From: Protofrankia sp. CiP1_Cm_nod1
GTDB taxonomy: Bacteria; Actinomycetota; Actinomycetes; Frankiales; Frankiaceae
NCBI RefSeq assembly: GCF_920888515.1
Contig: NZ_CAKKTM010000250.1
Location: 1 to 46,348 of the forward strand
Length of the DNA stretch: 46,348 bases
Direction: 5' to 3'
The position numbers and the translations under genes were made by a program. A model generated the notes under the pieces. It had not been told where the DNA came from and made no database searches. It was given only the letters and a program-made list of their open reading frames with translations. Shown in pieces: positions 24,290 through 46,348 of the stretch (positions are counted from its first letter, which is position 1; every line of letters starts with the position of its first letter).

Positions 24290-24364
24290 ATGTGTAAGAG
24301 AAGGCCCGGCGGCCGGTCACCGCTGACCGGCGCCCACGGCAGCCGGAGCGGGGGGCGGTCATGA
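24290..24364 (+). CDS. Possible 24-codon leader ORF overlapping thrS
   Basis: ATG 24290 (with an in-frame GTG just before it) is preceded by AAGGACG. It encodes a 24-residue Arg/Gly/Ser-rich peptide that includes rare AGA and AGG codons at positions 4-5, and stops at TGA 24362-24364 overlapping ATG 24361 of thrS. The overlap would allow coupled translation. It has only one Thr codon, so it does not look like a classical threonine attenuator. Confidence 0.35.
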   Translation: MCKRRPGGRSPLTGAHGSRSGGRS

Positions 24365-26193
24365 GCAAGGTCCCCCAGACTGACGCCGAGTACCGGGCAT
24401 CCACGCTCTACGCCAAGCGCCATTCGGTGGCGCACCTGCTCGCCCACGCGGTGGTGGAGAAGTTCCCGGACGCCAAGCTGGGCGTCGGCCCGCCGACCCG
24501 GGACGGCTTCTACTACGACTTCGCGCTCCCGCGTCCCCTCACCCCGGAGGACCTCACCGAGCTCCAGGAGCGGGTACGCGCCCTCATCCGCGGCGGTGTG
24601 CGCTTCGAGCGGCACGAGCTGACCACGGACGAGGCCACCACCAGGTTCGCCGACCAGCCGCTGAAGCTGGAACTCATCCGCGACATCGTCGCCGGCGGCG
24701 TCGACGACAACGGCGAGCCGATCGAGGGGCCGGTCGAGCTGTCGGTCTACGAGAGCGGTGACTTCGAGGACCTCTGCCGCGGCCCGCACATCGAGGACAG
24801 CAGCGTGGTCCACCCCGACGCGGTGGCGTTGCTGCGGGTCAGCGGCGCCTACTGGCGGGGCGACGAGAAACGCCAGCAGCTCCAGCGCATCTACGGCACC
24901 GTGATGGACTCCCCCAAGGAGCTGCGCCACTACCTGTGGCAGCTGGAGGAGGCCAAGAAGCGGGACCACCGGGTCATCGGCGAGGCGCTGGACCTGTTCG
25001 CCTTCAGCCCGGCGGTCGGCAAGGGGCTGCCGCTGTGGCTGCCGAACGGCACCGTCGTGCGCGACGAGCTGGAGACCTGGGCGCGCGAGGTCGAACGCGC
25101 CCACGGCTACCAGCGCATCGTCACCCCGCACATCACCAAGAGCGACCTGTACTACATCTCCGGGCATCTGCCGTACTACGCGGACGACCTCTACTCGCCC
25201 ATCGACATCGACGGCGAGGAGTACTACCTCAAGCCGATGAACTGCCCGCACCACCACATGGTGTATAAGGCACGCCCGCGCAGCTACCGGGAACTGCCGC
25301 TGCGGCTCGCCGAATACGGCACGGTCTACCGCTACGAGCGCTCCGGCCAGCTGTTCGGGATGATGCGGGTACGCGGTTTCGCCCAGAACGACGCGCACAT
25401 CTACTGCACGCGGGAACAGGCCATCGACGAGTTCCTCGCCGTCATGCGCCTGCACGCCCTCTACTACGACAAGCTCGGCATCGAGGACTACCACATGGTC
25501 CTCGCCCTGCGGGACCCGAAGAACACCGAGAAATACCACGGCGACGAGCTGATGTGGCAGGACGCCGAACGCATCACCCGCGACGCCATGGAACGCTCCG
25601 GGATTCCCTACGTCGAGGACATCGGCGGCGCGGCGCACTACGGGCCGAAAGTCGACTTCATCCTCACCTCGGTCACCGGCCGGGAGTTCGCCGCGTCCAC
25701 GAACCAGGTCGACCTCTACATGCCCGAACGGTTCGGTCTCACCTTCACCAACCGGCACGGTGAGGCGGAGCAGGCGGTCGTCCTGCACCGGGCGCCGCTC
25801 GGCTCGCACGAGCGTTTCGTCGCGTTCCTCATCGAGCACTTCGCCGGCGCGTTCCCGGTGTGGCTCGCCCCGGTCCAGGTACGGGTCGTCCCGATCAGCG
25901 ACCGGCAGGCCGACGGCGCCGCCGCCGTCTGGCGCCGCCTGCGCGACGCGGGTGTCCGCGCGGAACTCGACGACAGCGACAACACGATGCAGGCGAAGAT
26001 CCGCAGGGCCGAGCAGCAGAAGGTGCCCTACGTCGCGGTCATCGGCGACCGTGAGCTGGAGAACGACTCGGTGTCCGTCCGCGCCCGCGGGCGGCGCAAC
26101 CTGGGCTCGCGGCCCGTCCCCGAGCTGATCGAGAAGCTCGGCCGGCTCATCGCCGACCGCGCCATGACCCTCGACCTGGACCCGGCCGGCTGA
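24361..26193 (+). CDS. thrS: Threonyl-tRNA synthetase lacking the TGS domain
   Basis: A 610-residue class II synthetase charging tRNA-Thr. It contains the editing (SAD) domain with HSVAHLLAHAV and CRGPHIEDSS, the catalytic core with LPLWLPNGTVVRDELE, MNCPHHH and RYERSGQLFGMMRVRGFAQNDAHIYC, motif 3 around LHRAPLGSHERF, and a C-terminal anticodon domain (PVWLAPVQVRVVPISDRQ). The zinc ligands are Cys295, His346 and His476. It lacks the roughly 60-residue N-terminal TGS domain common in bacterial ThrRS. MNCPHHH has His where many have Gly, and Met454 occupies a position often Leu near the borrelidin-sensitive site. It may be a second, specialised copy. ATG 24361 has GGGGGGCGG upstream. Confidence 0.93.
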   Translation: MSKVPQTDAEYRASTLYAKRHSVAHLLAHAVVEKFPDAKLGVGPPTRDGFYYDFALPRPLTPEDLTELQERVRALIRGGVRFERHELTTDEATTRFADQPLKLELIRDIVAGGVDDNGEPIEGPVELSVYESGDFEDLCRGPHIEDSSVVHPDAVALLRVSGAYWRGDEKRQQLQRIYGTVMDSPKELRHYLWQLEEAKKRDHRVIGEALDLFAFSPAVGKGLPLWLPNGTVVRDELETWAREVERAHGYQRIVTPHITKSDLYYISGHLPYYADDLYSPIDIDGEEYYLKPMNCPHHHMVYKARPRSYRELPLRLAEYGTVYRYERSGQLFGMMRVRGFAQNDAHIYCTREQAIDEFLAVMRLHALYYDKLGIEDYHMVLALRDPKNTEKYHGDELMWQDAERITRDAMERSGIPYVEDIGGAAHYGPKVDFILTSVTGREFAASTNQVDLYMPERFGLTFTNRHGEAEQAVVLHRAPLGSHERFVAFLIEHFAGAFPVWLAPVQVRVVPISDRQADGAAAVWRRLRDAGVRAELDDSDNTMQAKIRRAEQQKVPYVAVIGDRELENDSVSVRARGRRNLGSRPVPELIEKLGRLIADRAMTLDLDPAG

Positions 26194-28430: not shown

Positions 28431-28454
28431 TTCGTCGACGTCTTCGTCGACGTC
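28431..28454. repeat. 2 x 12 bp tandem repeat upstream of the monooxygenase operon
   Basis: Two identical units TTCGTCGACGTC lie end to end about 50 nt upstream of ATG 28502. Each unit contains the palindromes GTCGAC and GACGTC. The position overlaps the probable core promoter or 5' untranslated region. Confidence 0.8.
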
Positions 28455-28501
28455 ACCGACGGCTGAACTCCGAGGGACCGGTGTCGCCGAAGGGGGCGGG
28501 G

Positions 28502-28834
28502 ATGACAGGCATGATCAGGGCGGAGTTACGGATGCGGGTGCGTCCGGGCTGCGAGGACGCGTTCGAGCGGGCCTGGCGCGAAGCGGCCGAGGAAATCGCG
28601 CAGGTTGCGGGAAACCTCGGCCAGGCGCTCATCCGCGATCTCACCGATCCGCGTACGTACGTCATCACCAGCGACTGGGCGGACCGGCAGCGCCTGGAGG
28701 CGTTCGGCGGCAGTGATTACCGCGAACGGCTCACCACCGCGCTGCGTGACTTGCGGGAGGACGCGCAGCGGCGCGTCTACGAGGTACGGGACGCGATAAC
28801 CGGCCCGTGTCCGACGTCGACGGAGGACGCATGA
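28502..28834 (+). CDS. ABM-superfamily monooxygenase-like protein
   Basis: A 110-residue dimeric alpha-beta barrel protein of the antibiotic biosynthesis monooxygenase type. It opens with IRAELRMRVRPGCEDAFERAWREAAEEIAQ, followed by LGQALIRDLTDPRTYVITSDWADRQRLEAFGGSDYRERL, the ferredoxin-like pattern of two beta-alpha-beta units. Such proteins oxidise anthrone-type intermediates or assist cyclisation in type II PKS pathways. ATG 28502 follows a GGGGGCGGGG stretch; a GTG at 28481 is less likely. It overlaps the next gene by ATGA and the two look like a duplicated pair that could form a heterodimer. Confidence 0.8.
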   Translation: MTGMIRAELRMRVRPGCEDAFERAWREAAEEIAQVAGNLGQALIRDLTDPRTYVITSDWADRQRLEAFGGSDYRERLTTALRDLREDAQRRVYEVRDAITGPCPTSTEDA

Positions 28835-29139
28835 GCATCAGAGTGATGTTGTACACGGAGGCTCCCGAGGGCGGCGAGCAGGAGTTCGAGGAGGCATACC
28901 GCCAGGTCGCGGTGCAGATGCGCGGCGTCGACGGGCACATCGCCGACGAGCTCCTGCGCGAGCCGGGGAGCAGTCGCTACCTGCTGTTAGCGGAATGGGA
29001 GGACGAGCGCCGTTTCACGGCCTGGGTCAGCGACCCCGCCCACACCGCGCGTACCGGGCCGCTCGTGCCGTATCTGGAGCGGACGTTCCAGCGCGCGGTG
29101 TACGAGGTCGCGGTGCGCCCGGCGGACCAGCGAGGGTGA
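28831..29139 (+). CDS. Second ABM-superfamily monooxygenase-like protein
   Basis: A 102-residue relative of the preceding protein: IRVMLYTEAPEGGEQEFEEAYRQVAVQMRG, then IADELLREPGSSRYLLLAEWEDERRFTAWVSDPAH, giving the same ferredoxin-like fold. ATG 28831 overlaps the preceding stop, so the two are probably translated together. Its likely role is oxidation or folding of the aromatic polyketide; the substrate is unknown. Confidence 0.8.
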   Translation: MSIRVMLYTEAPEGGEQEFEEAYRQVAVQMRGVDGHIADELLREPGSSRYLLLAEWEDERRFTAWVSDPAHTARTGPLVPYLERTFQRAVYEVAVRPADQRG

Positions 29140-29142
29140 CCG

Positions 29143-29598
29143 GTGCTCGCAGGGACGATCGCGGTGGCGGTGGTGATCGGCGCGGGGCTGCTCGCCGGCG
29201 CGCTGCTCGCGGTGGAGAAAGCCGTCATACCGTATTTCGCCTCGCTGCCGGCGGGCCGGTACGTCCCCACCCTGACGTTTCTCGACGACAGGTTCGACCC
29301 GTTCATGCCCTGGCTGGCCAGGGTCAAGGCACTGGTCACGATCGCCGCGATCGTGACCGCGCACTCGACCGCCTCCCAGGTGCTCTTCGGCGCCGGGCTC
29401 CTCTGCACGGCAGGTGTAGGCATTGTTTCGGAAAGTATCAATGTCGCGTTGAACCGCCGGATCCGCTCCTGGGATCCCGGCCATCCGCCGCCGAACTGGG
29501 AGGCGGTACGGCGGCGCTGGGCGTGGGGCAACCGGCTGCGCCTCGCCCTGGCAATAGCCGGGCTCGCCCTGGACTGCGCTGCCGCGACGGCCCTGTGA
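29143..29598 (+). CDS. DUF1772 (anthrone oxygenase-like) membrane protein
   Basis: A 151-residue membrane protein with four hydrophobic segments: at about residues 4-23, 62-76, 80-98 and 132-150. It has the DUF1772 pattern, including a middle NVALNRRIRSWDP followed by W...RRRWAWGNRLR, the conserved loop of the family. Members occur in aromatic polyketide clusters and are described as anthrone oxygenase-like. GTG 29143 starts four bases after the preceding stop, so it belongs to the same operon. Confidence 0.8.
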   Translation: MLAGTIAVAVVIGAGLLAGALLAVEKAVIPYFASLPAGRYVPTLTFLDDRFDPFMPWLARVKALVTIAAIVTAHSTASQVLFGAGLLCTAGVGIVSESINVALNRRIRSWDPGHPPPNWEAVRRRWAWGNRLRLALAIAGLALDCAAATAL

Positions 29599-29644: not shown

Positions 29645-30619
29645 ATGATCATTGCGGTGACGGGTACCTCCGGGCGTCTTGGTAACGATCTCGTGCCGCT
29701 GCTGCGCGCGTCCGGGCACGACGTCGTACGCCTGGTCCGTCGGGAGCCGGCCGCTCCCGACGAGGCACGCTGGGACCCCGCGACCGGCTCGGTCGACCCC
29801 GCGGCCCTGGAACGGGCCGAGGCCGTGGTGCACCTCGCCGCCGAGAACATCCTCGGCCGCTGGGAGGATCCGCAGGTACGCCACCGCATCCGGTCGTCCC
29901 GGGTGGATGTGACACGGCGTCTCGCCGAACAGCTGGCCACCGGCCGGTACGCCCCGCGCACCCTGGTGAACGCGGCGGCGATCGGCTACTACGGCCTCGG
30001 GCACACCGACGAGACGCTGACGGAGAACAGCCCACCGGGGCAGGGCTTCCTCGCGGAACTCGGACGTGACAGAGAGGCCGCCGCGATGGTCGCCGCCGAC
30101 GGCGGCCTGCGCGTGGTCAACCTGCGCGTCGGCGTGGTCCAGGCCCCGGACCAGGGCATGCTCCGCTTCCTCCTGCCGCGGTTCCGGCGCGGCCTGGGCG
30201 GGCGCGTCGGCCGCGGCCGCCGATACCTGGCGTGGGTGACGAGGCTGGACACGGCCCGGGCATGCCAGCACGTCCTGGAGCATCCGGAGGTGTCCGGGCC
30301 GGTCAACGCCGTCGCGCCGAACCCGGTGACCAACGCCGAGTACACCCGCACCCTCGGCCGTGTCCTGGGCCGGCCGGCTGTGCTGGCCGTGCCGCCGTTC
30401 GTCCTGCGCAAGGCGCTCGGCTCCTTCGCGGAGGAAACCCTGCTGCGCAGCACCCGCGCGCTGCCGGCACGCCTGTCGGACACCGGGTTCACCTTCAGCT
30501 TCCCCGAGCTCGAGGCGGCGTTGCGCCATGTTCTCGCCCCATCCGCGGCCGGCGACGCCGGCCCGGCGCCGGCACGGACCGTGACACGGACGACGGCCGC
30601 ATCCAGGAGCCGCTCATGA
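29645..30619 (+). CDS. TIGR01777-family NAD(P)-binding SDR protein
   Basis: A 324-residue extended SDR-like protein. The Rossmann motif is VTGTSGRLGNDLVPLL and the family signature segments are VVHLAAENILGRWEDPQVRHRIRSSRVDVTRRLAEQL, NAAAIGYYG and AWVTRLDTARACQHVLEHPEVSGPVNAVAPNPVTNAEYTRTLGRVLGRP. TIGR01777 (YfcH-like) proteins are mostly uncharacterised and are not standard polyketide ketoreductases. It may act on a polyketide intermediate. ATG 29645 has AGAGGGAGAAGGAAA upstream. It overlaps the exporter gene by ATGA. Confidence 0.88.
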   Translation: MIIAVTGTSGRLGNDLVPLLRASGHDVVRLVRREPAAPDEARWDPATGSVDPAALERAEAVVHLAAENILGRWEDPQVRHRIRSSRVDVTRRLAEQLATGRYAPRTLVNAAAIGYYGLGHTDETLTENSPPGQGFLAELGRDREAAAMVAADGGLRVVNLRVGVVQAPDQGMLRFLLPRFRRGLGGRVGRGRRYLAWVTRLDTARACQHVLEHPEVSGPVNAVAPNPVTNAEYTRTLGRVLGRPAVLAVPPFVLRKALGSFAEETLLRSTRALPARLSDTGFTFSFPELEAALRHVLAPSAAGDAGPAPARTVTRTTAASRSRS

Positions 30620-32292
30620 CCGGCCTGGCCGATCCCACCGCCACCGGTCCCACCGCCACCGGTCCCGCCGCCAGTCCCACGGGCTCGGCGGCACCGGTGG
30701 CAGGCCATCCCCGCCGCTGGCCGGTCCTCGCGGTTCTCGTCCTGTCGGTCCTGCTCACCGTCCTCGACGGGACGATCATCAACGTGGCGCTGCGGGTCCT
30801 CGCCGATCCGGAGCAGGGGCTGGGCGCGACCCAGACCCAGCTCGAGTGGGCGATCAACTCCTTCACACTCGTCTTCGCCGCGCTGCTGTTCACCTGGGGC
30901 ATCCTCGGTGACCGGATCGGGCACCGGCGCACGCTGGTGACAGGGATACTGATCTTCGGAGCGTCCTCCGTCGGCGCCGCGTACGCGGACACGCCAGCCC
31001 AGCTCATCCTGTGGCGGGTGGTGATGGGAATCGGCGCGGCCGCTCTGCCGCCGGCCACACTGGCGATCATCATGCATGTCTTCCCGCCGTCCCAGCGTCC
31101 CCAGGCGATCGGCATCTGGGCTGGTTCGAGCGGCCTTGCCGCGGTACTCGGGCCCATCGTCGGCGGCATCCTGCTCGGCCACTTCTGGTGGGGATCGATC
31201 TTTCTGATCAACATACCCGTCGTGCTCGTGGCGCTCGCGGGCACCGTGGCGCTGGTCCCCGAGTCCCGTGACCCCGCGCCCGGGCGGCTCGACCCGCTCG
31301 GGGTGGGGCTGTCGATCTCCGGCATCATGCTGCTGGTCTTCGGCATCGTCGAGGGCGGGCGGCTCGCGGACTGGACGCAGGGCCGGGTGCTCGGCCCGCT
31401 GCTGGGTGGCCTCGCGCTCCTGGTCGCGTTCGTCCGCTACGAACTGGCCATCGGCCATCCGGCGCTGGACGTCCGGCTCTTCCGTGACCGCCGGATGTCC
31501 GCGGCGGCCGTCGCCGTCGGGCTGGCCTTCTTCGCGATCTTCGGACTGACCTTCTTCATGGTCTTCTATCTCCAGAGCATCCGCGGGTACAGCCCGCTGG
31601 AGAGCGGACTGGCGCTGCTCCCGCTGGCCGTCGGCCTCGGGATGTTCTCGGCACGCTCCCCGAAGCTGGCCGAGCGGCGCGGCTACCGGCTGGTGGTCTC
31701 GGCTGGCCTGCTGCTCGCCTCGCTGTGTTTCTTCGGCTATGCGTTCCTGGACGCGGACTCGCCTGTCTGGGCGATACTGTTGATCTTCTTCCTGCAGGGC
31801 ATCGGTATGGCACACGTGATGCCCCCGGCTACCGAGGCGGTGATGAGCCTGCTGCCGGCGAGCAGGGCGGGAGTGGCCTCGTCGATCACCAACGTGACCC
31901 GTAACCTCGGCGGAGCCCTGGGCATCGCCGTGCTCGGCTCGCTGCTCGCCGTCCGGTACCGGGACGGGCTGGAGCCGCACCTGGCCACTGTGCCCCCATC
32001 CGCCCGGGCGGATGCGACCGAGTCGGTGGAGGCCGCCCGTGTCATCGCGGCGTCGCTCGGACCATCCGGGAGGACGTTGTGGGCCGACGCGTCCGACGCC
32101 TTCGTCTCGGCGATGCACAGCACGGCGATCGGGTGCGGGCTCGCGGGGCTCCTCGGGGCGGCCGTGGTCGCGGTGGGGATGCCTGGCGCGCGGGAGTCGG
32201 CGACCATGCACCACCAGATCCCCCAGCCGGCCGCGCCGGGCCCCCAGCCGGCCGCTTCCCGCCCGGTGGGATCGCGGCCGTCGCAGTCGTAG
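30616..32292 (+). CDS. DHA2-family MFS drug/metabolite exporter
   Basis: A 558-residue major facilitator with about 14 transmembrane helices, the DHA2 (EmrB/QacA-like) architecture. Motif A is GILGDRIGHRRTLVTG, motif D1/C-like segments are VLDGTIINVALRVL and GIWAGSSGLAAVLGPIVGGIL. It would export the aromatic product by proton antiport, giving self-protection. The N-terminal 30 residues contain Thr-Ala-Thr-Gly-Pro repeats. ATG 30616 overlaps the SDR stop; a longer open frame upstream of this start is a shadow of the SDR gene. Confidence 0.92.
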   Translation: MTGLADPTATGPTATGPAASPTGSAAPVAGHPRRWPVLAVLVLSVLLTVLDGTIINVALRVLADPEQGLGATQTQLEWAINSFTLVFAALLFTWGILGDRIGHRRTLVTGILIFGASSVGAAYADTPAQLILWRVVMGIGAAALPPATLAIIMHVFPPSQRPQAIGIWAGSSGLAAVLGPIVGGILLGHFWWGSIFLINIPVVLVALAGTVALVPESRDPAPGRLDPLGVGLSISGIMLLVFGIVEGGRLADWTQGRVLGPLLGGLALLVAFVRYELAIGHPALDVRLFRDRRMSAAAVAVGLAFFAIFGLTFFMVFYLQSIRGYSPLESGLALLPLAVGLGMFSARSPKLAERRGYRLVVSAGLLLASLCFFGYAFLDADSPVWAILLIFFLQGIGMAHVMPPATEAVMSLLPASRAGVASSITNVTRNLGGALGIAVLGSLLAVRYRDGLEPHLATVPPSARADATESVEAARVIAASLGPSGRTLWADASDAFVSAMHSTAIGCGLAGLLGAAVVAVGMPGARESATMHHQIPQPAAPGPQPAASRPVGSRPSQS

Positions 32293-32337
32293 CTGTCGAA
32301 ACCATGGTCCAGTGACGTCGCGGCATCAGGAGAACCG

Positions 32338-33027
32338 GTGACATATCGTGGTGGTACGGGGACGTCCGAACAGGATTCCGCTGTCCGGGCGGCGCAGTCG
32401 GACGACCGGTCCCAGGAGTTCTGGCGGGCCCACTTCCTGCGGGAATCGACGCGTTCCCTGTCGTCCGCGGCGGCCCACCTTGCCGGCGGCGAGGCTGTCG
32501 AAGCGCTGTACCTGGCGCGTCAGGCACGCTTCTTCGTAGAGGCGATGCTGGCGCAGGCGGCCGCGGAGGCACGGGCGGCCGGGCACAGCTGGGATCGCGT
32601 CGGAGAGGTCCTCGGCCTGAGCGGGACAGCGGCTCGTGACGCGTACGCGGATGGCGCGGCGCGGGGATTCGTCGCCGAAGCGGGTGGCGTCGAGGTGCTG
32701 ACCCGTATCGTCGACCGCTTCTACGGCAAGGTCGCGGCGGACGACGTACTCGGGCCGATGTACGGGGAGGACATCGCCGGCGCCGCCGAGCGGCTACGCG
32801 CCTTCCTGATCCAGTACTGGGGAGGCCCGCGTAGCTACTCCCCGCTGCGAGGACATCCGCGGCTGCAGATGCGCCACGCTCCCTTCCCGATCAATGCCCG
32901 GGCCCGGGAGTCATGGCTGCGCCTGATGGCGCAGGCCCTGACCGAGGAGGGCCTGCCCGCGCCGCTGGAACGCATGCTCTGGGAATACCTCGTGGACGGG
33001 GCACATGCCCTGACCAACACCGGGTGA
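32338..33027 (+). CDS. Group II truncated haemoglobin with N-terminal helix-turn-helix-like domain
   Basis: A 229-residue protein, nearly twice a normal trHbO. Residues about 113-229 form the globin: VEVLTRIVDRFYGKV with the B10 Tyr, LGPMYGEDIAGAAERLRAFLIQYWGGPRSYSPLRGHPRLQMRHAPFPI with the proximal F8 His180, then SWLRLMAQAL with the group II Trp G8. Residues about 28-110 are an extra helical domain ending in GHSWDRVGEVLGLSGTAARDAY (81-102), which resembles a helix-turn-helix. This could make it a haem-based sensor for O2 or NO rather than a simple oxygen carrier or NO dioxygenase. GTG 32338 is the start with GGAGAACCG upstream. It follows the exporter in the same direction. Confidence 0.85.
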   Translation: MTYRGGTGTSEQDSAVRAAQSDDRSQEFWRAHFLRESTRSLSSAAAHLAGGEAVEALYLARQARFFVEAMLAQAAAEARAAGHSWDRVGEVLGLSGTAARDAYADGAARGFVAEAGGVEVLTRIVDRFYGKVAADDVLGPMYGEDIAGAAERLRAFLIQYWGGPRSYSPLRGHPRLQMRHAPFPINARARESWLRLMAQALTEEGLPAPLERMLWEYLVDGAHALTNTG

Positions 33028-33087: not shown

Positions 33088-33876
33088 TCAGGCGGGCTCG
33101 GGCGATCCGGTGATGCGGCCGCGATGGGCATAGATCGCAAGCTGGGTCCGGTCCCGCAGGTCCAGGCGTCGCAGGACCGCCGTCAGGTGGCTTTTCACGG
33201 TGGCCTCGGTGACGAACAGACGGGCAGCGATCTCCGCGTTGGACAGCCCGTCGGCGACCAGTTCCAGCACCTCGCGCTGCCGCTGGGTGAGGCGGATGTC
33301 CACACCCTTCATCGCGGTGCCGACCGTGGGAACGGGTGCGGAGGGTGCGGAGGGTACGGAGGGCGCGGTGTCGCCGCCCCCGGTCGGCCCGGTGGAGGAC
33401 GGCCGCCCTGCCCAGCAGGCCGCGAGGTGGCTGGCGACGGTAGGCGCCAGGGTGATGTGACCGGCCGCGGTCGCGCGGATGGCGTCGAGAAGATCGGCAG
33501 GCGGGATGTTCTTGATCAGATAGCCGCGGACGCCGAGGCGCAGCGCCTCGGCCGCCAGGTCGTCGGAGCCTCGGCGGGCGGTGATGATGATGTGGGGGCG
33601 GCGATCCGGCAGGGCCGCGGACAGCTTGCGGATGAGCGGGAGGACGCCGGCTCCGTCCAGGTCGCGGTCGACCATGCAGATGTCGGGCTGGAACTCCTGC
33701 GCCGCCAGCAGGAGATCCGCGCTGTCCGCCACGTCCCGCACGACGGTGATGTCCGGTTCCCGGCTGAGAATCACCCGCATCCCCGTCCGTACCACGTCGC
33801 AGCTTTCGGCGAGAAGCACCCGTATCGTCCGGGTGGGCCGGGCTGTGGCATGTCCGGACACTCCGGGCTTGGACAC
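33088..33876 (-). CDS. NarL/LuxR-family response regulator (orphan)
   Basis: A 262-residue regulator. The receiver begins IRVLLAESCDVVRTGMRVIL, with phosphoacceptor Asp in DICMVDRDLDGAG, Thr in IIITARR and Lys in GYLIKNIPP. The acidic pair is Ala-Glu. A Pro/Ser/Thr-rich linker precedes the LuxR domain LTQRQREVLELVADGLSNAEIAARLFVTEATVKSHLTAVLRRL. GTG 33876 is preferred because GGAGGAGG lies at ideal spacing; in-frame ATGs at 33996/33993 with GAAGGGG would add about 40 residues. It is convergent with the haemoglobin gene and divergent from the next regulator. Confidence 0.85.
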   Translation of the reverse strand: MSKPGVSGHATARPTRTIRVLLAESCDVVRTGMRVILSREPDITVVRDVADSADLLLAAQEFQPDICMVDRDLDGAGVLPLIRKLSAALPDRRPHIIITARRGSDDLAAEALRLGVRGYLIKNIPPADLLDAIRATAAGHITLAPTVASHLAACWAGRPSSTGPTGGGDTAPSVPSAPSAPVPTVGTAMKGVDIRLTQRQREVLELVADGLSNAEIAARLFVTEATVKSHLTAVLRRLDLRDRTQLAIYAHRGRITGSPEPA

Positions 33877-34065
33877 CTGCGCCTCCTCCGGGGAATCCAC
33901 AGACGACACGCACACGGCCCGGCCGGCGGCATCGACGGGTGGGCGGCCGTGGAAGAGCCCACCTTCAAGGTCTTCATGGACGGTGTACGGCATCATAACC
34001 CCTTCGACCGTCACGGGAACGATCTCGGCTACCCGGGGCCGCTTGTCCGGTGGGTCCGCGAGCAT

Positions 34066-34654
34066 CCGGGTAGTTGAACAACCTGTATATCAACCCGGCG
34101 CCACGCACACACCATCGTCAGATAGATGATACCGCTCCGCCGGCGGCGGAAGATTTTCGTCCTTCTCCCGGATGGCTTCTCGCACCCGAGAATACCAGCC
34201 GCCCGACAATAACTGTCCGTGTACGGCGGCGGGCCGGGGCCCGGCGGCGGTGGGCCGCCGCCGAAGCCGCCGCGGCGCCGGATCCGGCCCGCGTCGATGT
34301 GATCCGGGCCGTGACCAGGAAGACCAAAGCCGGAATGATCATATATCTTTGACGTTACCGGGGGCCGGAGTCACCGGATCATCGGCTGGCAACACCGGAG
34401 ATCGTCTTCGAAGTGGCCCACCTGGTGTTCCTTATCGCCGTTTGCCTTCCAGGAGGTGCGCCACCCGTGCCGTGATGAGACGTAACGCGGCCGGCACCGG
34501 AATCTGAGTCTGTCGTAACCGCGACAGACCTTTTCCTCGATCATGCCGGCACGGCAGGCTACGGCATGAGTCCAGAACAGGATACGCCGCCCTGCGTCGG
34601 CAGCTGAGGATGCGCCGGCAGGCAGCCGGTCGCCGTCCGGACGGGGGGAGCGGA
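34066..34654. promoter_or_regulatory. Divergent intergenic region between two response regulator genes
   Basis: A 590-nt region, partly AT-rich for this genome (34075-34140 and 34325-34360, including ATGATCATATATCTTTGACG). It must hold the promoters of both regulators. I see no open frame with protein character and no RNA gene. GGGGGAG at 34644-34650 is the ribosome binding site for ATG 34655. Confidence 0.4.
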
Positions 34655-35362
34655 ATGGATGGACGCTCAGGGCCGGATATCGCGGCGGAGAATACGGTGC
34701 GCGGAGCGGGCGACGAGTCCACCCGCCCCGTACGGATTCTGCTGGTCAACGGCCATCCTGTCTTCCTGGCGGGGCTGCGTGCGCTGTTGGAGGCCACCGC
34801 GGTGGGCGAGGTGGTCGGTGATCTCACGAACGGCGCCGACATCATCCCCGCGGCTCGACGGCTGCGTCCGGATGTCGTCATCTTCGATTTCGACGACGAC
34901 GACAACGATGTGCTGGCGCTGACCCAGCGCATCTCGCGGGAATGCCCGAGGACCGCCGTACTCGTCCTCACCGGACGGCATGACCAGCGGACCGTCGCGG
35001 CCGTGGTGCGGGCCGGTGCCCGCGGATGCGCCTTCAAGGCGGCGCGGCCGGAGGACCTCGCGCGCGCGGTGGAGGCGGTCAGCCACGGCGAGGTGATCTT
35101 CGGTGCCCATATCGCCGACAGCGTGTTACGCCACTTCGACGCCGCCGGGGCGGAGCAGCCTCCGTTCCCCGAGCTCACCGAGCGGGAGCGCGTGGTGCTC
35201 TGCCTCGTCGCGGACGGCTACTCCACGGCCGCCATCGCCGGTGAGCTGGCCCTCACCACGAAAACGGTGCGCAACTACCTGTCGAAGATTTTCGCGAAAC
35301 TGGAAGTGCGGGACCGCGCCGAGGCCGCGGTCATTGCCCGGCGTGCCGGGCTCGGGGGCTGA
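34655..35362 (+). CDS. NarL/LuxR-family response regulator with incomplete receiver pocket
   Basis: A 235-residue regulator. The receiver starts VRILLVNGHPVFLAGLRALLEAT; the Asp-Asp pair is replaced by Asn-Gly, while the phosphoacceptor Asp in DVVIFDFDDDDND, Thr in LVLTGRHD and Lys in GCAFKAARP are kept. The LuxR domain is LTERERVVLCLVADGYSTAAIAGELALTTKTVRNYLSKIFAKLEVRDRAEA. ATG 34655 is chosen for GGGGGAG five bases upstream; an in-frame start at 34610 is weaker. It lies upstream of the PKS core genes in the same direction, so it is a candidate pathway regulator. Confidence 0.87.
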   Translation: MDGRSGPDIAAENTVRGAGDESTRPVRILLVNGHPVFLAGLRALLEATAVGEVVGDLTNGADIIPAARRLRPDVVIFDFDDDDNDVLALTQRISRECPRTAVLVLTGRHDQRTVAAVVRAGARGCAFKAARPEDLARAVEAVSHGEVIFGAHIADSVLRHFDAAGAEQPPFPELTERERVVLCLVADGYSTAAIAGELALTTKTVRNYLSKIFAKLEVRDRAEAAVIARRAGLGG

Positions 35363-44328: not shown

Positions 44329-44382
44329 ATGCCCGTTCACGCCCGTCAGCCGGTGCCCGGCGCACGGTCGGGAGCACGATGA
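44329..44382 (+). CDS. Possible 17-codon leader ORF between riboswitch and chelatase
   Basis: ATG 44329 is preceded by GGGAGG with 8-nt spacing. It encodes [17 protein letters not shown] and stops at TGA 44380-44382, overlapping the chelatase ATG 44379. The chelatase start itself has only a closely spaced GGAG, so coupling to this leader could be how the riboswitch controls its translation. The peptide has no known function. Confidence 0.4.
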
Positions 44383-46348
44383 CGGCCTACCCGCTGTCCG
44401 CGGTGGTGGGTATGGACGACCTGCGGCTCGCTCTCGTCCTCAACGCCGTGTCACCGGCTATCGGCGGGGTACTCGTCCGGGGGGAGAAGGGCACCGCCAA
44501 GTCGACGGCGGTACGGGGGCTCACCGCCCTGCTCCCGCCCCTGGCGGTGGTGGCCGGCTGCCGGTTCGCCTGCGACCCGGCCGCCGGTGACGCCGACTGC
44601 CCGGACGGCCCGCATCCACCCGAGGCTCCCGCCGTGACCCGGGCGGCGCGGATGGTGGAGCTGCCGGTCGGCGCCTCGGAGGACCGGGTGACCGGGGCGA
44701 TCGACCTCGACCGGGCGCTCACCGAAGGCGTCACGGCGCTGCGCCCCGGGCTGCTGGCCGCCGCCCACCGCGGCCTGCTCTACGTCGACGAGGTCAACCT
44801 CCTGCACGATCATCTTGTCGACCTGCTGCTGGACGCGGCCGCGCTCGGCGTCGCCCACGTCGAACGCGACGGGGTGTCGGTCCGCCACGCCGCCCGGTTC
44901 CTGCTGGTCGGGACGATGAACCCGGAGGAGGGTGAGCTGCGCCCGCAGCTGCTGGACCGGTTCGGGCTGACCGTCGAGGTCGCCGCCAGCCGGGACCCGC
45001 GGGTGCGGGCCGAAGTGGTGCGCCGCCGGCTGGCCTACGATGCCGGCCCGCGGGCCTTCGCCGCCGCCTGGGCGGAGCAGGACGCCGCCCTCGCCGCCCG
45101 GATCGCCGCCGCCCGCGACCGGCTGCCCGCCGTGGAGCTCTCCGAGACGGCGTTGCGCCAGGTCACCGCGGTCTGCGCCGCCTTCGACGTGGACGGGATG
45201 CGCGCGGACGTGGTCACCGCCCGCACCGCGATCGCGCTGGCCGCCTGGGAGGGCCGCGAGCGCGTCACCGCCGACGACATCCGCCGCGCCGCCCGCCTGG
45301 CCCTGCCACACCGGCGCCGCCGGGGCCCGTTCGACGCCCCCGGCCTGGACGAGGACACCCTCGCCGACGCTCTGGAACAGGCCCTGGAACAGACCGGGGA
45401 GCCACCCACGGACGACCCTGACGGACCGCCACCGGCCGGCGGCGGGGGCGGCGGAGGCAGTGGCGGCGGTGGCGGCGGTGGATCCGCCGGCGGCCACGGC
45501 AACGGCGGTGCCGCTACCGACAGTGACGAGAATACCGGTGCCGGGCCGCCGTTCACGTCGGCCGGCGACCTGCCGGCCCCGCGCCCGGCGGAATCGGAGC
45601 CCCTGCACCGGGCGGAAACGCAACAGACGGAGACGGACGCGGAACCGTGGCCCGCCGGCGGGCCGGCCACCGCGTCCGAGCACAGCCGGTACGAGCAGCC
45701 CGACCCGTCGCGCGGACGGGCGGACGCCGCTGGCAGCGCACACCCCGCCGGCCCGCCCGGCCCGGTGTTCCGCCCCCGCCGCCTGGAGATCCCCGATGTC
45801 GGTACCGGTCTCGGCGCCGCCGGGCGGCGCTCCCGGGCCCGTACCCGCCACGGCGCGGTGGTCACCGCCTCGCCGGAGGCCCCTGGCCTGCACCTGCCGG
45901 CGACCCTGCGGGCCGCCGCGCCCTGGCAGCAGGCCCGCGGACGCCACGGGCCGGGGCTGCTGCTGCGGCCGTCCGACCGGCGCGGCGCCGTCCGGGAGGG
46001 ACGCGAGGGCAACCTGGTGCTGTTCGTGGTGGACGCCAGCGGCTCCATGGCCGCCCGCGCCCGGATGCGCACGGTCACCACCGCCGTGCTCTCCCTGCTC
46101 CTGGACGCCTACCAGCGCCGCGACCGGATCGGAATGATCACCTTCCGGGGTGCCGACGCCGAGGTCGTCCTGCCGCCGACGTCGAGTGTGGAGGTGGGCG
46201 CGGCCCGGCTGCGTTCCCTGCCGACCGGTGGGCGCACCCCGCTCGCCGCCGGGCTCACCCGCGCCGGGCAGGTGCTGGCCGCCGAACGCCGGCGTGACCC
46301 CGACCGGCGCGCGCTGCTGGTCGTCGTCACCGACGGCCGGTGCACCAC
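44379..46348 (+). CDS. ChlI/ChlD-type cobalt chelatase AAA+/VWA subunit (truncated by window end)
   Basis: At least 656 residues are visible and the frame runs off the window. It fuses a ChlI-like AAA+ ATPase to a ChlD-like VWA domain. The Walker A motif GEKGTAKS is at residues 35-42, with [26 protein letters not shown] (Walker B region) and [25 protein letters not shown] Gly/Asp-rich and acidic linker spans about residues 345-470. The VWA MIDAS DASGS begins at Asp552. Such proteins power CobN in aerobic cobalt insertion, and the cobalamin riboswitch just upstream supports a cobalt rather than magnesium role. ATG 44379 overlaps a small leader ORF. Confidence 0.92.

Follow-up and report, generated by a model that had tools for sequence, protein, structure and literature searches.

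Our analysis of a 46,348-nucleotide stretch of DNA from Protofrankia sp. CiP1_Cm_nod1 (the window) identifies a gene in which a helix-turn-helix (HTH)-fold module of the ClpC2/RelI kind is joined in frame to a group II truncated haemoglobin (trHb). The parts are known and their fusion is new; among the genomes searched, it is the single known example of an HTH-module/trHb protein. The residues of the haem pocket are intact and a basic residue conserved in the module's homologues is lost, and DNA binding by the fusion protein is, judged from its sequence, doubtful. We lean slightly towards the idea that it is a dimeric haem protein and away from the haem-globin transcription factor that had been suggested for it.

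One frame, two domains

The earlier note on this DNA described a trHb with about 110 extra N-terminal residues, and these do belong to the globin's reading frame. A continuous frame opens with a GTG at 32338, a Shine-Dalgarno-like AGGAG precedes it (Table 1), and the G+C content of residues 28-106 by codon position (0.79/0.58/0.81) is of coding type and similar to that of neighbouring stretches. The note had also raised the alternative that translation begins near residue 110 to give a standard trHbO. This is ruled out because no start codon lies there, the only other in-frame starts ahead of the globin core being an ATG at residue 70, within the N-terminal domain, and a GTG at residue 120, within the first globin helices. 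The fusion looks real on these sequence features.

The C-terminal half, as aligned, is a complete group II trHb, in agreement with the first description of it. It matches the Pfam Bac_globin profile over positions 7-120 of 121, the full domain (PF01152, 1.4e-26), and this is the only Pfam domain in the fusion chain, with no ABM domain beside it. It also matches the trHb of T. fusca (2bmm, 5.6e-38) and M. tuberculosis HbO (1ngk, 7.6e-32), and by alignment to both the haem pocket is complete, with Y129 (TyrB10), Y142 (TyrCD1), W193 (TrpG8) and, as the proximal ligand, the H180 (HisF8) singled out earlier. AlphaFold2 models the globin's F-helix region poorly (pLDDT ~40). The same genome also carries a standard trHbO on another contig, which groups with the trHbOs of its family (support 96/91). 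The fused globin has the longest branch of the globin tree (1.68 vs a median of 0.3) and is a divergent second copy, one that the tree does not trace to an origin.

A second fusion was found neither with the full-length query in 146 related genomes, nor with join-spanning queries in 395 genomes of the class, 396 of the phylum and 35 of the order, nor with the N-terminal query in 35 genomes of the family, these sets overlapping one another. Thirteen matches to the full-length query reached the N-terminal region, and those recovered are ordinary trHbOs that lack the module. No place in plasmids covered 80% of the fusion query, and the fusion was unmatched in viral contigs. The two-domain architecture, a search for which had been suggested, was likewise absent from the 20 kb stretches read of nine related type II polyketide synthase clusters, discussed below.

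Table 1. Features of the fusion gene and its surroundings (window positions)
Feature	Position	Strand	Basis or remark
ABM-like monooxygenase 1	28481..28834	+	Likely start ATG 28502; sequence; tandem ABM-like genes in related clusters match by tblastn
ABM monooxygenase 2	28807..29139	+	Pfam PF03992, 1.1e-13
Anthrone-oxygenase-like protein	29143..29598	+	Pfam PF08592, 4.6e-7
SDR/epimerase with DUF1731	29645..30619	+	Pfam PF08338, PF01370
MFS exporter	30613..32292	+	Pfam PF07690, 6.9e-57
AGGAG, Shine-Dalgarno-like	32328..32332	+	5 nt before the GTG of the fusion gene; from sequence
HTH-module/trHbII fusion gene	32338..33027	+	229 aa, single open frame
N-terminal ClpC2-N/RelI-type HTH-fold module, residues 37-108	32446..32661	+	Query-left-out HMM, viral-homologue HMM, AlphaFold2
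E68 ... R79, aligned to the ClpC2 D46-R57 dimer salt bridge	32539..32574	+	Alignment to 8ADA; inferred
Helix-turn-helix, helices 85-92 and 96-103	32590..32646	+	AlphaFold2 model; pattern common to 51 homologues
Ala102 codon	32641..32643	+	Homologue alignment: Arg in 50 and Lys in 1 of 51
Group II truncated haemoglobin domain, residues 116-226	32683..33015	+	Pfam PF01152, 2bmm match
LuxR-type response regulator, convergent	33088..34065	-	Pfam Response_reg and GerE
Second LuxR-type response regulator	34610..35362	+	Pfam Response_reg and GerE

The N-terminal module

Searches of Pfam and NCBIfam with the N-terminus alone gave no match. Genome searches recovered many actinobacterial proteins that share the module, in which a long helix is followed by the pattern ARxxGxSWxxIGxxLGxSxxAAxxR[FY], and a profile built from the query and 20 homologues matched the solved structures of RelI (9SDC, 2.7e-20) and of the N-terminus of ClpC2 (8ADA, 3.4e-7). 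To avoid circularity, an HMM was made from 34 bacterial homologues with the query omitted; it detected the fusion N-terminus at E=7e-14, and an independent HMM of 17 viral-contig homologues did so at E=4e-9. In the control for both HMMs, 2000 shuffles gave at best E ~0.2-0.3. By these matches the HTH-like stretch is beyond chance and the N-terminal domain is of a known kind, belonging to the small actinobacterial HTH-fold family of ClpC2-N and RelI; with the trHbII match they substantiate the two-domain architecture proposed earlier. The module's core residues W85, G93 and R79 are intact in the fusion protein, and other members of the family resemble HTH proteins by Pfam (HTH_23, Sigma70_r4). 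The same module is also present in 21 IMG/VR viral-contig loci, with the last-helix arginine kept in 17/17 of those aligned.

Structure prediction of the N-terminus had been named beforehand as a way to check for a helix-turn-helix, and it returned one. Prediction from the single sequence was of low confidence; the AlphaFold2 model used here was made from an alignment with the viral-contig homologues. It contains helices at 53-80, 85-92 and 96-103, with block pLDDT of 82-97 over residues 31-100 and ~96 in the helix-turn-helix itself (residues 85-103), and it has the layout expected of the module, a long helix and then a helix-turn-helix. Because these helices are modelled at high block pLDDT, the HTH geometry is supported at the level of the model. 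Among the best 50 Foldseek matches listed from the PDB, the leading ones are truncated haemoglobins and the solved ClpC2 and RelI domains do not appear; against viral proteins, the HTH part lies over small phage HTH or sigma-region-4 proteins with an rmsd of 0.8-2 Å across 46-49 residues and E >1.

The further suggestion that the protein is a DNA-binding transcription factor fared less well. At the last-helix position of ..AAxxR[FY], which is basic in 51/51 homologues, the fusion protein has Ala102; this arginine or lysine is a conserved residue of the module and not a published criterion of membership. The net charge of the helix pair is -2, the lowest of the set, with one homologue equal. 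The replacement of a near-invariant residue and the net negative helix pair make DNA binding doubtful, and they would favour dimerisation or protein contact instead. Because the module's most conserved positive charge is gone, we would go only as far as to call a DNA-binding gas-sensor role possible.

What is known of the module's relatives points the same way. Residues 4-72 of ClpC2 fold as a bundle of four helices, which pairs into a dimer by means of a salt bridge, D46-R57; the positions of this bridge are kept by alignment in the fusion protein, as E68/R79. Full-length ClpC2 is a DNA-binding autorepressor that acts at a palindromic operator and is relieved by cyclomarin, its authors assigning DNA contact to the C-terminal domain (PMC10030653). 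The HTH region of RelI contacts the toxin, and in the available text of PMC13284704 evidence of its binding DNA is neither found nor modelled; the same text records RelI family members with fusions to DUF3887 and DUF2812. The two relatives studied structurally use the module for dimerisation or for toxin binding, DNA contact through the module being demonstrated in neither.

Genomic context and candidate operators

The fusion gene is the last of a same-strand run of tailoring and export genes in a type II (aromatic) polyketide cluster, beginning 45 nt after the end of the MFS exporter gene. The gene for ABM-like monooxygenase 1 is presumably the first of the operon, and we infer that the fusion gene belongs to it. 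Downstream of the fusion gene lie genes for a cyclase, acetyl-CoA carboxylase subunits, KS-alpha and the chain-length factor. An earlier placement, with the exporter on one side of the gene and two orphan regulators on the other, is correct as to position, but it is more apt to see the gene as closing the biosynthetic operon upstream and converging on the first regulator. In nine other actinobacterial clusters that contain KS, CLF, cupin and AnthOx genes, and in most cases ABMs as well, neither the fusion protein nor a globin was matched in the 20 kb stretches read. A globin is thus not generally required for this chemistry, and the fusion gene supplements a cluster of a type already known.

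A whole-window search for operators of the ClpC2 type gave nothing above chance. The sequence GTGACGTC occurs in the window only 5' of the operon's first gene and 5' of the fusion gene, and it is not enriched (2 found vs 3.8 expected); we regard it, together with the upstream inverted repeats, as a weak lead. A tandem 12-bp repeat, TTCGTCGACGTC x2 (28432-28456), lies just 5' of the first ABM-like gene and could be a regulator site, and an imperfect inverted repeat, CCGGGTAGTTGAACA / TGTATATCAACCCGG (34066-34098), directly 5' of the minus-strand response regulator could be an operator.

Two other genes of the window deserve mention. A threonyl-tRNA synthetase gene (24361-26193) adjoins the polyketide cluster and is probably a housekeeping gene and not a resistance duplicate, since the 87%-complete genome has no second full copy. 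At the contig edge lies an open-ended ORF (44379-46346) that has the Walker-type motif GEKGTAKST and, near its C-terminus, a VWA-like stretch; by eye, it resembles a Mg-chelatase-type ATPase.

Possible functions and relation to known systems

We envision a scenario in which the HTH-fold module makes the fusion protein a homodimer, E68/R79 standing in for the ClpC2 salt bridge, and may also dock it to a partner. The haem domain would bind O2, and NO or peroxide, and the dimer would serve or protect the oxygenation steps of the two ABM monooxygenases and the anthrone-oxygenase-like protein, either by holding O2 or by removing NO and oxidants. The HTH fold would be used for dimerisation and protein contact, with most of its ability to bind DNA gone. 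That the protein is a dimer serving or protecting the O2-dependent tailoring enzymes of its own operon is, in our estimate, not quite an even bet. It accords with the membership and modelled fold of the module, the dimerisation of ClpC2 and the toxin binding of RelI, Ala102 and the charge of its helix pair, the intact haem pocket and the position of the gene, which closes a same-strand run that also encodes two ABMs and an anthrone-oxygenase-like protein; a trHb-ABM chimera in S. avermitilis (Bonamore 2007, as cited in the available text of PMC7082302) offers a parallel. Against it stand the likeness of other module members to genuine HTH proteins, autorepression by full-length ClpC2, the nine related clusters that lack a globin and the occurrence of the fusion as a single example.

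Several of these points lend themselves to a haem-globin transcription factor, an HTH dimer that represses or activates and in which O2, NO or the redox state at the haem domain would control binding to DNA. Such a protein would act as ClpC2 does, in which the same layout of module and C-terminal ligand-binding domain yields an autorepressor relieved by its ligand (PMC10030653), and the confidently modelled HTH geometry, the HTH_23 and Sigma70_r4 likeness of the homologues, the two adjoining response regulators and the two sites of GTGACGTC are all in its favour. The loss of the conserved arginine in a net negative helix pair, the assignment of ClpC2's DNA contact to its other domain, the empty operator search and the lack of enrichment of GTGACGTC weigh against it, as does a gene that ends a biosynthetic run and is neither alone nor divergent; we consider it a real but lesser possibility. 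The proposal of a dimeric HTH regulator on the ClpC2 plan, with its trHbII sensing O2 or NO and controlling the pigment or polyketide operon, is rather less likely than not in our view; if the protein does regulate, it would by itself connect O2 or NO directly with the making of an aromatic polyketide. The joining could instead be recent and near-neutral, with the globin an ordinary trHbO and the module a decaying remnant of a regulator. Its single occurrence, the long globin branch, the lost arginine and the separate standard trHbO would all fit, yet frame, module core and haem pocket are intact, and we think this quite improbable. The host genome is a fragmented draft (5.2 Mb, 476 contigs), in which a misassembled or frameshifted contig might have brought two genes together; a join in frame without a stop, continuous codon composition and flanks that form one coherent polyketide cluster leave little room for such an artefact, which we hold to be very improbable.

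The fusion protein resembles several known systems. As in group II trHbs such as 2bmm and 1ngk, the whole globin domain and its haem-pocket residues are present; those proteins are single-domain, whereas the fused copy evolves fast, is without the usual N-terminal start and has the HTH module attached. Globin-coupled sensors also combine a globin with a putative output domain, but theirs is an N-terminal 3/3 globin followed by the output, while the fusion protein has a C-terminal 2/2 globin. The S. avermitilis chimera of a trHb and an antibiotic monooxygenase and the multidomain trHbs (Hade 2017), as far as the available text of PMC7082302 describes them, share the fusion of a trHb to a second domain and, for the chimera, the link to an ABM-type monooxygenase; in the window the ABMs are encoded by genes of their own, upstream, and what is fused to the trHb is an HTH-fold module. 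RelI (Rv2664) belongs to the same module family, in which fusions to other domains already occur, and differs as a stand-alone antitoxin with the last-helix arginine that the fusion protein lacks; the available text of PMC13284704 mentions no globin fusion. Few domains are known in fusions with the ClpC2/RelI module, and a globin can now be counted among them; the biochemistry of the module itself has only begun to emerge. ClpC2 itself (Rv2667, M. tuberculosis) shares the order of an N-terminal HTH-fold dimerisation module and a C-terminal ligand-binding domain, and its AR motif and the acidic partner of its salt bridge are kept; in place of a globin, its C-terminal part is a cyclomarin-binding Clp N-domain, and DNA-binding autorepression is demonstrated for ClpC2 only. 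The fusion protein offers a clean test of whether the module binds DNA or merely dimerises.
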